DNA of 36,943 nt from Longimicrobiales bacterium (GCA_035764935.1 DASTYK010000149.1:1-36943); one strand, 5' to 3'. Numbered from the stretch's first letter, positions 31,970 to 36,943 are shown. Program-made: numbers and translations. Notes: generated by a model not told the origin, from the letters alone.

Positions 31970-33139
31970 TCAGTCTGCTCCCTGCGTCTCGACCCGCACG
32001 AATTTGAACACGCGTCCACCCTCGCCGCCGCGCGTCAGCACGTACAGCTCCGATGCCGCATCTTCTCCGAACGAGAGCACGTTGCCGATCGCGCCGACGC
32101 TCCACTCCTGCTCATCCGTGACACCGTTGCCTACCACCCGGAAGCTGCGGATCCATCCCGCACAGAAGTCGCCGTAGAAGTAGTGGCCGCGCAGCTCCGG
32201 TATCGCGTCGCCCCGGTACACGTAACCACCGGTAACGGAGCACGTGGCGTCCCCGTTGGCGTACTCGAGCACGGGCTGCATCAGGTCGCTCGTATCACAC
32301 GACGATGCATCGAAGCAGTGACGGCCCTCCATGAGGTTCCAGCCGTAGTTGACGCCGGCGCGGCTCGTCGGCACCACGTTGATCTCTTCCCACGCGTTCT
32401 GTCCCACGTCAGCGATGTACATCCGGTCCGCCTCGCGGTCGAAGGAGAACCGCCAGGGATTGCGCAGGCCGTACGCCCAGATCTCGCCGCGTGCGCCCGC
32501 GACGGTCCTGAACGGGTTGTCGAGCGGTATCGCGTAGGGCTCCCGGCTGTCCACGTCCAGGCGCAGGATCTTGCCGAGCAGCGACGAGAGATCCTGCGCG
32601 TTGCCCTGCGGATCCCCGCTGCCACCACCGTCGCCCGTCGCGACATAAAGGGCACCGTCCGGGCCGAACGCGATCATGCCACCGTTGTGGTTTGCGAAGG
32701 GCTGCTCGATGGCGAGCACGAGCTCGGCACTCGCCGGGTTCGCGATATCGGGGTCCCCCGACACCTGGTAGCGCTCGATGCGCGTGTCGCCGTTGGTGTC
32801 GGTGTAGTTCACGTAGAACCAGCCGTTCGCGCCGTACGCCGGATGGAACGCCAGCCCCAGCAGCCCCTGTTCTCCGCCCGACCGGACCCGCCCGCGAATG
32901 TCCAGGAACGGCTCCGCCAGGACTGCCCCGTCCTCGATGATGCGGATCGTGCCTGTCTGCTCTACAATGAAGAGCCGATCGTCGCCCGGCGGTGCCGTCA
33001 GAAAGACCGGGGAGTCGAAGCCCTCCGCGACCAGCTCCAGCTCGGTCTCGTTGCCTGAGGGCGGGGGCGCGACGACGCCGCCGTCGTCGCAGGCGGCGAA
33101 AAGGACGGCCAGGACGAGCGGTCCGCGAATCCGTGTCAT
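31970..33139 (-). CDS. Sorbosone/glucose dehydrogenase-type beta-propeller lipoprotein (PQQ-type)
   Basis: The 389-residue protein is exported, with lipobox LFAAC (Cys17) and a short Asp/Pro-rich linker. The mature part resembles soluble aldose sugar dehydrogenases (GSDH family, like E. coli YliI): VAEGFDSPVFLTAPPGDDRLFIVEQ at the start, EQGLLGLAFHP, FANHNGGMIAFGPDGALYV with the catalytic-type histidine, DGGGSGDPQGNAQ for calcium, GLRNPWRFSFD, VGQNAWEEIN and VTGGYVYRG. These enzymes oxidise sugars using PQQ; no PQQ synthesis genes are in the window. Two cysteine pairs (HCFDASSCDTS and others) suggest disulfides. GGAGG lies six bases before the ATG. It is divergent from the hydrolase gene at 33253 and convergent with the GGDEF/EAL gene. 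Confidence 0.88.
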   Translation of the reverse strand: MTRIRGPLVLAVLFAACDDGGVVAPPPSGNETELELVAEGFDSPVFLTAPPGDDRLFIVEQTGTIRIIEDGAVLAEPFLDIRGRVRSGGEQGLLGLAFHPAYGANGWFYVNYTDTNGDTRIERYQVSGDPDIANPASAELVLAIEQPFANHNGGMIAFGPDGALYVATGDGGGSGDPQGNAQDLSSLLGKILRLDVDSREPYAIPLDNPFRTVAGARGEIWAYGLRNPWRFSFDREADRMYIADVGQNAWEEINVVPTSRAGVNYGWNLMEGRHCFDASSCDTSDLMQPVLEYANGDATCSVTGGYVYRGDAIPELRGHYFYGDFCAGWIRSFRVVGNGVTDEQEWSVGAIGNVLSFGEDAASELYVLTRGGEGGRVFKFVRVETQGAD

Positions 33140-33252: not shown

Positions 33253-34101
33253 ATGGGACTCAACACGCTGCGCCGGCAGATCCTCGGGATCGCCGATGAA
33301 GCAGGCGCGAAGGACGTCGCCGTAGCCTTCTACGACTTCGAGCACCGCGTCGAGTGGAGCCTCCACGCGGAACGGTGGTTCCATGCGGCCAGCACCATCA
33401 AGGTGCCCGTTCTCCTGGGCGTGTACGACGCGATCGAGCGCAGTGAGCTCGAGCCGCATTCCCGCGTTCATGTGCGCAACCGGTTCCTCAGTATCGTCGA
33501 TGGACGGCCGTTTCGCGTGGAGGGCGGACGCGACGCCAACAGTGCGGTCCACGCCGCCATCGGCAGGACCATGACCGCGCGTGACCTTGCCTTCCACATG
33601 ATCACGACCAGCAGCAATCTCGCGACGAACCTCCTCGTCGACATCGTCGGCATCGAGGCGATCCGGCAGACGATCGACACGCTGCGCCTGCCCGGCATCG
33701 AGTTTCACCGCGGCGTGGAAGACATGAGTGCCTGGGAGCACGACGTCAACAACCGGGTCACGGCCCGCGGCCTCCTCACGGCGCTGCGGCTCATCGAGGA
33801 GCGTGCAGCGATCTCGGAGGCAGCCAGCGAGGAGATGCTCGAGATCCTGCACGCACAGGAGTTCCGCAGCGGAATCCCCGCCGGGCTGCCCGATGCCGCA
33901 AGAGTCGCGCACAAGACCGGAGAAATGTCGACTGTCGCACACGACGCGGGCATCGTTTACCTGGCGGACCGGGCGCCGTACGTGCTGACCGTGCTGACCG
34001 AGTGGGAGCCCGATGCGTCCCGTCGCAGCGCCACCATCGCGAGCATTTCGCGAAGCGTATACGAACACGTGTCCGCGGAGCTCACGGTCGATGCCGATTA
34101 G
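33253..34101 (+). CDS. Class A beta-lactamase-like serine hydrolase without signal peptide
   Basis: The 282-residue protein has the full active-site pattern of class A beta-lactamase-like serine hydrolases (beta-lactamase2 family). These are S-x-x-K as Ser47-Thr-Ile-Lys50, S-x-N as Ser120-Ser-Asn122, an omega-loop-type Glu162-x3-Asn166 in WEHDVNNRVTARG, and KTG at 221-223. No signal peptide is visible at the ATG (33253), and in-frame extensions back toward 33190 (GTG) do not create a convincing one. It is thus probably cytoplasmic, unlike true beta-lactamases, which act in the periplasm. It could be an amidase, esterase or peptidase acting on an intracellular substrate. Upstream GGGCAGG is close to the ATG, so the start is not certain. 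Its stop overlaps the next gene by 11 bases, and an amidoligase-like gene follows. Confidence 0.78.
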   Translation: MGLNTLRRQILGIADEAGAKDVAVAFYDFEHRVEWSLHAERWFHAASTIKVPVLLGVYDAIERSELEPHSRVHVRNRFLSIVDGRPFRVEGGRDANSAVHAAIGRTMTARDLAFHMITTSSNLATNLLVDIVGIEAIRQTIDTLRLPGIEFHRGVEDMSAWEHDVNNRVTARGLLTALRLIEERAAISEAASEEMLEILHAQEFRSGIPAGLPDAARVAHKTGEMSTVAHDAGIVYLADRAPYVLTVLTEWEPDASRRSATIASISRSVYEHVSAELTVDAD

Positions 34102-34714
34102 CCTGAACGACCTGCCCGTCGTCGATGCGCACGAGCTGCCCCGCGACGTGCGCGCACTGCTCCGGCCCGGCGAGACGCTGCGCGACCGCGAAGGCACGGA
34201 GCACGTGCTGCCTCGCTGGTTCTACGAGGTCGACTCCTGGGAGACCGCGCTGGACACCGTGGTCGCGCCCCACTTCATGCTCTGGGAGTTCATGACCATC
34301 GACGTGCGGGAGGCCGAGCGCTTCCGGCAGCGCTTCCCCCGCTACGTGCCCTGTGCGATCGCACTGCTGGCGTCCTCTCTCGAAGTGTTCCGGCAGGCCG
34401 TCGGCACCTATGTCCACATCGCCGCCAACGGCGGTTATCGGACGCCCTCGCATCGTCTCACGCGCTCGGCTTCGCGTCACTGCTGGGGCAGCGCAGCCAA
34501 CATCTACCGCGTCGGCGATGACTGGCTCGATACCCGGGAAATGATCGAGAAGTACGCCACCATCGCCCGCAGCGTCCTGCCCGCCGTCTGGATCCGGCCG
34601 TACGGCCCCGAAGACGGGATGGCCGACGACCACCTCCACCTGGATCTCGGCTATGTCGCGGCACGCCCGACCGGCGCCACCGCCGCGTCCGAGGACTCCG
34701 ACGCCGCGGCCTGA
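34091..34714 (+). CDS. M15-like (DD-carboxypeptidase-fold) protein with altered metal ligand
   Basis: The C-terminal two thirds of this 207-residue protein resemble the M15 / D-Ala-D-Ala carboxypeptidase zinc fold. There is LWEFMTIDV, then a helix VPCAIALLASSLEVFRQAVG, the strand YVHIAANGGYRTPSH, the first metal motif SRHCWGSAAN with His130, and the second motif DDHLHLDLGY with His181 and His183. In M15 enzymes the first motif is normally H-x2-G-x-A-x-D; here the Asp position is Asn137, so zinc binding or activity may be changed. No signal peptide is present. The first 60 residues (LPRDVRALLRPGETLRDREG) match nothing I know. It begins inside the end of the hydrolase gene and ends 21 bases before the ligase-like gene, which suggests one operon. 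Confidence 0.65.
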   Translation: MPISLNDLPVVDAHELPRDVRALLRPGETLRDREGTEHVLPRWFYEVDSWETALDTVVAPHFMLWEFMTIDVREAERFRQRFPRYVPCAIALLASSLEVFRQAVGTYVHIAANGGYRTPSHRLTRSASRHCWGSAANIYRVGDDWLDTREMIEKYATIARSVLPAVWIRPYGPEDGMADDHLHLDLGYVAARPTGATAASEDSDAAA

Positions 34715-34735
34715 ACCCTGCACTGCTGTCCCGGC

Positions 34736-35968
34736 ATGTCGGGACAGAAGAAGAACGCGCTGCCGGACCTGGCGGCGGATCAGGAACGCCTTGCGCTCGC
34801 GGCAATCGGCATGGAAGCGGAGTTCGTCCTGCTTCTGGATGACGAGGCCGTGAAGCCCGAAGAGGTCTTCGGCTCGCCGCGCGATTTCATCCGCGGCGAG
34901 CTCATGCATCGCCGGGGCACCTCCTACCACCTGCCGAATGGCGGTGCCATCTACTTCGATACGGGCGTCATCGAGATTGCGACCCCCGTCATCGAGATCG
35001 AAAAAGGCTGCGCCGCGCGCGCTGCCCGCTCGCTCTGGGAAGGCATTCACTTCGTGCGTGCGGAGCTGGATGCCTGGGAACAGCAGGACGGCCGGCAGGC
35101 CCGTCTGGCCGGCTTCAGCACCCACTACAGCATCTCCTTCGACGCGGTCCCGAACGGCAACCCGGACAGGAACGTCTACCAGCTGGCGCACCTGCTGACC
35201 TACATCCTGCCCGCACCGGTCATGCTGCTCGCCGCGAACCGGCGCTCGACCGGCGTCGGCGTGCGGCCGCGCGGCGACCGCGTCGAGATCACGGTCGACT
35301 TCACGCCCAGTCCCGCGCTGATGGTCGCGACCGGCTCGGTGATCACCGGGATCGTGCGTGAAGTGATGAGCTGGGATTCCTTCGCGCTCGACGAGCTCGA
35401 GAAGCGAGGCATCCCCGTATTCGCGGGGTTCGCGCCCGTCCCGCATACCACGCGCAAGGGCTGGCTGGCACGCTTCAGCTCCTTCCCGGAGAATCCGTTC
35501 GCGACGTCGCCCAGTGCCGTGACCTGGCGCACCACTGACGGCAGGACCCGCAGCCTCCGAGGTATCGCACGGGACATCCTGCGCGTCTTTGCGAGGTCAA
35601 TCCGTCGCATCGCCGACCCCTTCACGTTCCGCTTCGTCCTGCGGGTGCTCGCGGGCGGTGCACCGTCGCTGCTCGATCTGCCAGACCGGCCGCCGGAATA
35701 CGAGGATGTCGGCCGCGCATGCGTGTGGGAGCAGCTCTTCCCGCGCCGGTGGATCAACCATTCGCGCTACGAGCGGGTCCTCATCCGCGCAATCGCTGGT
35801 CAGCGGCTGCACCTGTTCAACCGGTGGTACACGCCGGTGGGGATGCACGGCTGGTCGCGGGTCGTCTTCCGGCGGGACGACGATCGCACCCGACACACCT
35901 TCCCCATCGATTTCCTGCTTGCGCACCTGCGCCGCTGGGACGGCCGACGCGCACGCGCACGGGCATGA
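34736..35968 (+). CDS. Putative glutamine-synthetase-fold amidoligase (carboxylate-amine ligase)
   Basis: I do not recognise a named family, but several segments resemble the glutamine synthetase / glutamate-cysteine ligase fold. There is an early acidic GMEAEF (Glu27, Glu29), a YFDTGVIEIATPVIE strand with Asp75, Glu80 and Thr-Pro, FSTHYSISFD with His130, and a later Arg-rich strand VGVRPRGDRVEITVDFTPSP. These positions match where that fold holds its ATP and metal ligands. Such enzymes join a carboxylate to an amine with ATP (YbdK, GCS2, Dop/PafA and other amidoligases). The substrate is unknown. The 410-residue protein has no export signal and ends in a basic tail. The ATG at 34736 lacks a good ribosome site. 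It is the last gene after two predicted hydrolases, and its stop codon meets the T-run of an opposing terminator. Confidence 0.5.
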   Translation: MSGQKKNALPDLAADQERLALAAIGMEAEFVLLLDDEAVKPEEVFGSPRDFIRGELMHRRGTSYHLPNGGAIYFDTGVIEIATPVIEIEKGCAARAARSLWEGIHFVRAELDAWEQQDGRQARLAGFSTHYSISFDAVPNGNPDRNVYQLAHLLTYILPAPVMLLAANRRSTGVGVRPRGDRVEITVDFTPSPALMVATGSVITGIVREVMSWDSFALDELEKRGIPVFAGFAPVPHTTRKGWLARFSSFPENPFATSPSAVTWRTTDGRTRSLRGIARDILRVFARSIRRIADPFTFRFVLRVLAGGAPSLLDLPDRPPEYEDVGRACVWEQLFPRRWINHSRYERVLIRAIAGQRLHLFNRWYTPVGMHGWSRVVFRRDDDRTRHTFPIDFLLAHLRRWDGRRARARA

Positions 35969-36097: not shown

Positions 36098-36943
36098 TCA
36101 GAACAGCCGCAGCGCGGACCCCACCCGCTGGAGCAGTGCCGCTGCCTTGCGTCTTGGGCGTGCGACCACGCGCTCCTGCCCGACCGGGACGGACGCCGCG
36201 GCGCCGGCAGGAACCGCCGGGATCGCTCCGGCTGCCGCCAGTGCCGGGGACTGCGCGCCGGCGTGCGTGAAGTGCCGCGCGAACAGGAGCGCAACATCAT
36301 CCACGATGCTGTACAGCACCGGTACCACCACGAGCGTGAGCACCGTGGCAAACGAGAGACCCGCAATCACGGCGATCGCCATCGGTGCCCACCACGCCGC
36401 CTGCTCACCTCCCCAGTAGATATTCGGTGAGAGCGAAGTGTACAGGCCGAAGAAATCCAGGTTGAAGCCGGTCGCCAGCGGCACCAGCCCCAGCACCGTG
36501 GTGATCGCCGTCAGGATCACCGGCCGGAAGCGCGTGATGCCCGCCTGGATCAGCGCCTCGTCGCGACTCAGCCCATCCCGCGTGCGGAGCAGGTCGATGT
36601 AGTCGATCAGCACGATCGCATTGTTGACGACGATGCCGGCGAGTGAGATCACCCCCACACCGGTCATGATGATGCCGAACGGCATGCGGAAGACCATGAG
36701 ACCGAGCAGCACACCCACGGTCGACATGATCACCGACGTCATGATGATGAACGGCTTGATCACCGAGTTGAACTGCGACATCAGGATCAGCGCGATGAAG
36801 GCCAGCGCGATCATGAACGCAGTCATCAGGAACCGCATGGACTCCTGCTGCTCCTCCTGCTCGCCCGTGTAGCGGATCGTATAGCCGGCCGGCAGCGAGA
36901 AGTCGCGGAGCACCTGCTGCACCTCGGCGAGCACCGCATTGCT
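36098..36943 (-). CDS. RND efflux transporter, C-terminal part (cut by window edge)
   Basis: The frame stays open to the window edge (SNAVLAEVQQVL), so the N-terminal two thirds or more of the protein lie outside. What remains is the C-terminal membrane half of an RND pump of the AcrB/HAE1 kind. It has the porter-domain end LPAGYTIRYTGEQEEQQESM, then helices FLMTAFMIALAFIALILMSQF, SVIMSTVGVLLGLMVF, GVISLAGIVVNNAIVLIDYI, VILTAITTVLGLVPLATGF and FATVLTLVVVPVLYSIVDD. The GIVVNNAIVLID segment is the RND signature. A loop NIYWGGEQAAWWAPM and an Ala/Pro-rich cytoplasmic tail of about 70 residues follow. Such pumps export drugs, bile acids or lipids from the inner membrane outward; the substrate cannot be told from this part. 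A terminator follows the stop. Confidence 0.9.
   Translation of the reverse strand, partial: SNAVLAEVQQVLRDFSLPAGYTIRYTGEQEEQQESMRFLMTAFMIALAFIALILMSQFNSVIKPFIIMTSVIMSTVGVLLGLMVFRMPFGIIMTGVGVISLAGIVVNNAIVLIDYIDLLRTRDGLSRDEALIQAGITRFRPVILTAITTVLGLVPLATGFNLDFFGLYTSLSPNIYWGGEQAAWWAPMAIAVIAGLSFATVLTLVVVPVLYSIVDDVALLFARHFTHAGAQSPALAAAGAIPAVPAGAAASVPVGQERVVARPRRKAAALLQRVGSALRLF

Follow-up and report, generated by a model that had tools for sequence, protein, structure and literature searches.

In a 36,943-nt stretch of DNA from a Longimicrobiales bacterium (GCA_035764935.1 DASTYK010000149.1:1-36943; hereafter the window), we found a compact cluster of three genes that encode a class A beta-lactamase-fold hydrolase (BLA), an M15-fold protein (M15) and a ligase of the glutamine synthetase (GS) superfamily (LIG), and that stay together across phyla. 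The genome context of this trio, namely its co-occurrence with the murein peptide ligase Mpl and its peptide-handling neighbours, points to a role in the recycling of murein (peptidoglycan) peptides. With moderate confidence, we suggest that the trio processes murein peptides and that LIG represents a new family of the GS superfamily. The genes lie on one strand, genes 1 and 2 overlapping by 11 bases (34091-34101) and genes 2 and 3 being separated by a 21-base gap (34715-34735), coordinates that confirm the layout given in an earlier sequence-only reading of the window:

33253..34101, + strand: gene 1 (BLA), 282-aa class A beta-lactamase-fold serine hydrolase (PF13354, E 1.7e-47)
34091..34714, + strand: gene 2 (M15), 207-aa M15/hedgehog-fold protein (sub-threshold PF08291, phrog_894, 1lbu)
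34736..35968, + strand: gene 3 (LIG), 410-aa GS-fold amidoligase with a Dop/PafA-type C-terminal domain (predicted structure)

Conservation of the trio across phyla is far beyond chance. The sequence-only reading had hinged on the three genes staying adjacent in relatives, and they do: the full trio is found in the same order and on the same strand at 39 of 41 Gemmatimonadota loci, the exceptions (L015 and L021) being truncated where their contigs stop. In an independent named collection, for which an alignment-based scan gave 117 relatives, 80 of them kept, while a scan with the single window protein gave none, the full trio is present at 78 of 80 loci and both exceptions are again at contig ends. 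The loci belong to five groups, the Gemmatimonadota, Burkholderiales (Ramlibacter), Verrucomicrobia, Acidobacteria and Rhodothermales. Carriers include Ramlibacter species, Caenimonas sedimenti, Chthoniobacter flavus, other Verrucomicrobia, Acidobacteria and metagenome-assembled genomes (MAGs) labelled Rhodothermaceae, Rubrivirga or Bacteroidetes.

Within 298 Gemmatimonadota genomes, M15 is present in 30 of the 31 that bear LIG (in the remaining one, G023, LIG sits at a contig edge), and elsewhere in the set it yields a single marginal match (E 6.5e-6). The spread is patchy: 31 of the 298 Gemmatimonadota genomes are carriers, as is 1 of 195 Verrucomicrobiota genomes sampled. The pairwise distances of one protein track those of the others (correlations of 0.78-0.88), and the copies from Burkholderiales are nested within the window's own Gemmatimonadota family; the trio thus appears to have been transferred as a unit. 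No LIG homologue was found in the plasmid and viral collections searched.

The window LIG is matched by neither Pfam nor NCBIfam models, and Pfam likewise recognises none of 20 family members. Its predicted structure (predicted local distance difference test, pLDDT, 82.7; predicted TM-score, pTM, 0.80) clearly has the GS-superfamily fold, which bears out the assignment of the sequence-only reading. Foldseek places PafA and Dop at the top of its matches (E 1e-8), and with VIA-align the model aligns to Dop (5lrt) over 341 residues (model residues 20-408, Z 21.1), to YbdK over 253 residues reaching residue 330 (Z 17.9), to plant glutamate-cysteine ligase (GCL) with Z 16 and to glutamine synthetases with Z of about 10. 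Since Dop aligns to residue 408 and YbdK only to 330, the small C-terminal domain of the model is one that LIG has in common with Dop/PafA and not with YbdK. At the level of profiles, hhalign gave E 2e-4 against the Pup-ligase set, a weak match at a probability of 46%, and E 0.066 against the GCS2 set; the local, mact 0 setting alone aligned the families, and did so weakly, default and global alignments being empty.

The hhalign alignment lays the LIG motifs GMEAEF and NGGAIYFD over GIETEY and NGARFYND of the Pup ligases. The sites of interest in gene 3 are:

34814..34822, + strand: E27-x-E29 (G-x-E-x-E), putative metal-binding glutamates (motif, conservation)
34958..34960, + strand: D75 (YFD), aligned with the catalytic Asp region of Dop/PafA (hhalign, conservation)
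35279..35287, + strand: R182-x-E184, GS-type R-x-E of presumed function (motif, conservation)

Across 93 LIG members, E27, E29, D75, E80, H130, R177, R182 and E184 are each at least 97% conserved, and their motifs suggest that they bind ATP and metal. Because the motifs coincide in the weak hhalign alignment, D75 falls on D94 of Dop, the aspartate that activates water (PMC8599861). The Arg two residues before the Tyr of the Dop Y-x-D motif is Ala in LIG.

In the disordered N-terminal tail of LIG (residues 1-20, window 34736-34795), a pair of Lys residues recurs at about positions 5-7; K6 is found in 17/17 Burkholderiales and 28/56 Gemmatimonadota members, mostly as AAG codons there, and the remaining tail is variable. 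The acidobacterial LIGs (L131:2846-4552, L141:7896-9599, L142:7944-9500) have a basic, Pro-rich stretch of about 100-150 residues inserted after the GS core and ahead of the C-terminal domain. In the sole carrier of family f2 (L063:7351-8510) LIG is frameshifted into two overlapping pieces, by sequencing error or decay. A Gly-Gly C-terminus is found in 14/56 Gemmatimonadota LIGs (Longimicrobiaceae-like, e.g. L013, L014, L016) and in none of the other groups, so that a ubiquitin-like reading of these ends was dropped; the window LIG ends in RARA.

Gene 1 encodes a protein that resembles solved class A-like proteins such as TLL2115, and all three motifs of such serine hydrolases (SxxK, SxN, KTG) are present as S47xxK50, S120-S-N122 and K221-T-G223:

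33391..33402, + strand: SxxK motif codons S47-K50, predicted nucleophile (sequence, conservation)
33913..33921, + strand: KTG motif codons 221-223 (sequence, conservation)

Because S47, K50, S120, N122, K221 and G223 are retained across 90 relatives, as is T222 with few exceptions, BLA is likely to be a working serine hydrolase. The class A beta-lactamase-type hydrolase named by the sequence-only reading is upheld as a fold; BLA scores 105.9 bits, short of the cut-off of 200 for true class A beta-lactamases (NF033103). Its omega-loop region, R153-G-V-E/D156-D157, has a spacing unlike that of class A E166 when the sequences are compared.

The M15 assignment of gene 2 likewise held for the fold and failed for the zinc triad. 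PF08291 matches the window protein below threshold (E 0.039) and 12 of 19 relatives (best E 3e-4), and the endolysin family phrog_894 matches it at E 9.5e-6. Foldseek on its own found no significant match for the model (pLDDT 86), while VIA-align placed it closest to the Streptomyces zinc DD-peptidase 1lbu (Z 8.6), followed by Sonic hedgehog (Z 6.6) and the L-Ala-D-Glu peptidase ChiX (Z 6.5). By their spacing, we take H130-x6-N137 and D180-x-x-H183 to be the M15 zinc and catalytic residues (S. albus numbering):

34478..34501, + strand: H130 to N137, M15 zinc-ligand pair with Asn replacing Asp (conservation)
34628..34639, + strand: D180-H-L-H183, M15 catalytic Asp and third zinc-ligand His (conservation)

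Three of these positions are nearly invariant (H130 in 93/93 members, D180 in 92/93, H183 in 90/93). Position 137 is Asn in 78/93 members, the window's included, and Asp in 15/93, so that the His-Asp-His triad of M15 zinc peptidases is incomplete in the majority. Most members, judged from these residues, have an altered metal site, and since Asn occupies the place of the zinc-ligand Asp there, M15 may not be a working peptidase.

The link to murein comes from the genomes that carry the trio. Mpl reattaches recycled murein peptide to UDP-MurNAc. We counted as Mpl any best match with an E-value no higher than 1e-90, together with two matches that were split or partial, and found it in 29/31 trio carriers compared to 22/267 non-carriers among the 298 Gemmatimonadota (Fisher 4e-24, uncorrected for phylogeny). 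For example, in genus g51 all five trio-positive genomes have Mpl and none of the four trio-negative ones does. Outside the Gemmatimonadota, 19/20 carriers have it, and in Verrucomicrobia 8/8 carriers do compared to 61/195 in the background. The S66 (LdcA) family shows a similar bias in Gemmatimonadota (31/31 carriers and 88/267 others, likewise uncorrected for phylogeny). As all 31 carriers have an S66 member, the trio does not replace LdcA, and we rejected that idea.

Mpl is also the commonest neighbour of the trio in Gemmatimonadota (above the NCBIfam mpl cut-off), lying inside the retrieved flanks in 15 genomes; mostly it is downstream and convergent, but in genus g73 it is upstream and divergent, at a distance of about 100 bp. 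In g51, genes for a peptide-type (Dpp/Gsi-type) ABC permease and an SBP_bac_5 binding protein are directly upstream of the trio on the same strand. An ABC transporter that imports muropeptides has been shown in Agrobacterium (PMC9790009), and SBP_bac_5-type systems may also import murein peptides if, as we infer, they are linked to that transporter's family. In Verrucomicrobia, a C26 gamma-glutamyl-hydrolase-like gene is divergent within about 40 bp of the trio, and DUF885 and POT peptide transporter genes are downstream. DapA/DapB genes are found within 5 kb at a few loci. Among open reading frames of at least 50 aa, no neighbour beyond the trio itself is conserved across phyla.

GS-fold ligases typically activate the gamma-carboxylate of glutamate, as do GS, GCL and PafA (in the case of PafA, that of Pup's C-terminal Glu). 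Murein's gamma-D-Glu-mDAP (meso-diaminopimelate) linkage is a gamma-glutamyl amide bond. By this analogy, that linkage, or its amidation, would be the first candidate for LIG. We propose that the trio is an obligate cytoplasmic cassette that processes murein-derived peptides after uptake, including a gamma-glutamyl amide step by LIG, a proposal that could equally well prove right or wrong in this specific form. BLA would remove D-Ala from stem peptides as a DD- or LD-carboxypeptidase type of enzyme. M15 would bind or cut the same stem peptide, either as a peptidase that is weak or uses an altered metal site or as a substrate-binding subunit. LIG would spend ATP on activating a carboxylate in a side chain, most likely the one at the gamma position of (D-)glutamate, and so form, amidate or reverse a gamma-glutamyl amide bond. 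After this editing, the peptide would be reused through Mpl or degraded. A cytoplasmic location is consistent with the three N-termini, none of which is signal peptide-like by inspection, in the window or in relatives, in line with the sequence-only reading.

A number of observations weigh against this proposal. The window itself has no murein gene adjoining the trio and no Mpl match; in its genome (G000), Mpl is on another contig (C56), and S66 too is on a contig other than the window's. Mpl is absent from two Gemmatimonadota carriers (G170, G202) and from one Rhodothermaceae MAG (G323). The co-occurrence of trio and Mpl is confounded by phylogeny, and in g51, where the two are neighbours, they could move together; the trio-negative members of g51 also have S66, which is thus non-discriminating there. 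Mpl is frequent in Burkholderiales, so the Ramlibacter carriers add little to the association. To these points comes the Asn in the M15 zinc site.

The sequence-only reading had suggested either a cytoplasmic cycle that makes, attaches and removes a small adduct or the recycling of cell-wall-derived peptides. The second suggestion gains from the Mpl co-occurrence and the peptide-handling neighbours, and the first from the Dop/PafA-like fold alone. If LIG were part of a Pup-like conjugation, it would attach a peptide or small protein to lysines or remove it, with the hydrolases maturing or removing the tag. PafA and Dop are indeed its best structural matches, C-terminal domain included, the Pup-ligase set fits its profile better than GCS2 does, and the lysine-rich disordered tail recurs, for example with K6 throughout the Burkholderiales. 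The profile kinship is weak, however; a PF03136 search of the window's genome and 30 relatives was negative, Chthoniobacter flavus carries canonical PafA/Dop-type genes alongside the trio, and the cross-phylum neighbours include neither a tag gene of at least 50 aa nor other Pup or proteasome context, no direct Pup profile search having been made. We consider conjugation of this kind quite improbable. It is very improbable, in our view, that LIG is a third kind of Dop/PafA-type enzyme, one that would link a peptide from murein, or glutamate, reversibly to proteins or to the lysine-rich tail of LIG itself, while BLA and M15 trim the adduct or take it off. This would amount to protein modification with cell-wall peptides independent of Pup and the proteasome. 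Full-length Pup-ligase family genes are found, in two copies each, in Chthoniobacter flavus and a Spartobacteria MAG (L144-L147); since these two Verrucomicrobial carriers have both, Pup-type enzymes and the trio do coexist.

The peptide ABC and POT transporter, DUF885 and C26 genes beside the trio would also fit a cassette for nutrient scavenging, directed at peptides from the diet or the environment or at gamma-glutamyl compounds generally. The commonest neighbour and co-occurring gene is nevertheless Mpl, an enzyme specific to the recycling of murein, and the two hydrolases have folds characteristic of cell-wall peptidases; we regard general scavenging as rather unlikely. Biosynthesis of a specialised small peptide (a signal, antibiotic or osmolyte), in which LIG would couple amino acids and the hydrolases would trim what it makes, would draw on the established ability of GS-fold ligases to make novel amides, and on the patchy spread and the nesting of the Burkholderiales copies, which suggest transfer as a unit. 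Across phyla, however, the trio is accompanied by no conserved gene for a transporter, regulator, carrier or precursor, and this reading seems unlikely. The class A beta-lactamase and M15 folds might finally suggest self-protection or resistance to beta-lactams or D-Ala-D-Ala-directed antibiotics. This we hold to be very improbable given the bit score of BLA, the lack of an apparent export signal, the absence of a plasmid LIG homologue and a PADLOC search that gave no match, a result on which a defence-system reading was dropped as well.

The trio is also distinct from the closest known systems. PafA/Dop (PF03136) have, like LIG, a GS-type fold with a small C-terminal domain and aligned G-x-E-x-E and NG-x-x-Y-x-D motifs, but LIG is unrecognised by PF03136 and its partners are M15 and beta-lactamase-fold proteins. 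YbdK/GCS2 (PF04107) shares the GS fold and lacks the C-terminal domain; LIG has no PF04107 match, and separate PF04107 genes exist in the window's genome. Trio carriers nearly always have Mpl and S66, that is, members of the recycling scheme of E. coli (Mpl, LdcA). To our knowledge, the known recycling pathway contains no GS-fold ligase and no such trio, and none was found for murein recycling in the literature searched. If LIG amidates, it would target the same stem-peptide glutamate as MurT-GatD, which combines Mur-ligase and glutamine amidotransferase folds rather than a GS fold (PMC3267633). The sequence-only reading knew of no described system with this trio, and the literature searched, to which most subscription papers are external, describes neither the trio nor the LIG family. 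The proposed processing of cell-wall peptides by the trio seems to be an undescribed pathway step.

LIG stands as an unnamed GS-superfamily ligase family, with a model like that of the Pup ligase and depupylase and with different partners, in five groups of soil bacteria. If its substrates are murein peptides, an ATP-using peptide-editing step would be added to cell-wall recycling. A gamma-glutamyl-peptide ancestor may then have been recruited for protein tagging, which bears on the origin of PafA/Dop. Cultured carriers exist in Ramlibacter species, Caenimonas sedimenti and Chthoniobacter flavus.

The cluster is bounded on both sides, as the sequence-only reading had it, by a divergent dehydrogenase gene and an opposing terminator:

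31970..33139, - strand: glucose/sorbosone dehydrogenase gene, divergent, upstream boundary, outside the cassette (PF07995, E 9e-49)
36004-35973, - strand: intrinsic terminator of the opposing RND-type gene, bounding the cluster (14-pair stem, TTTTT tail)

A sigma-70 scan found no promoter, a negative of little weight for Gemmatimonadota. Further downstream, ARAGORN calls a tRNA-Val(GAC) at window 36592-36666 on the + strand, antisense to the RND transporter gene, and because of this position inside a coding region the call is probably a false positive.

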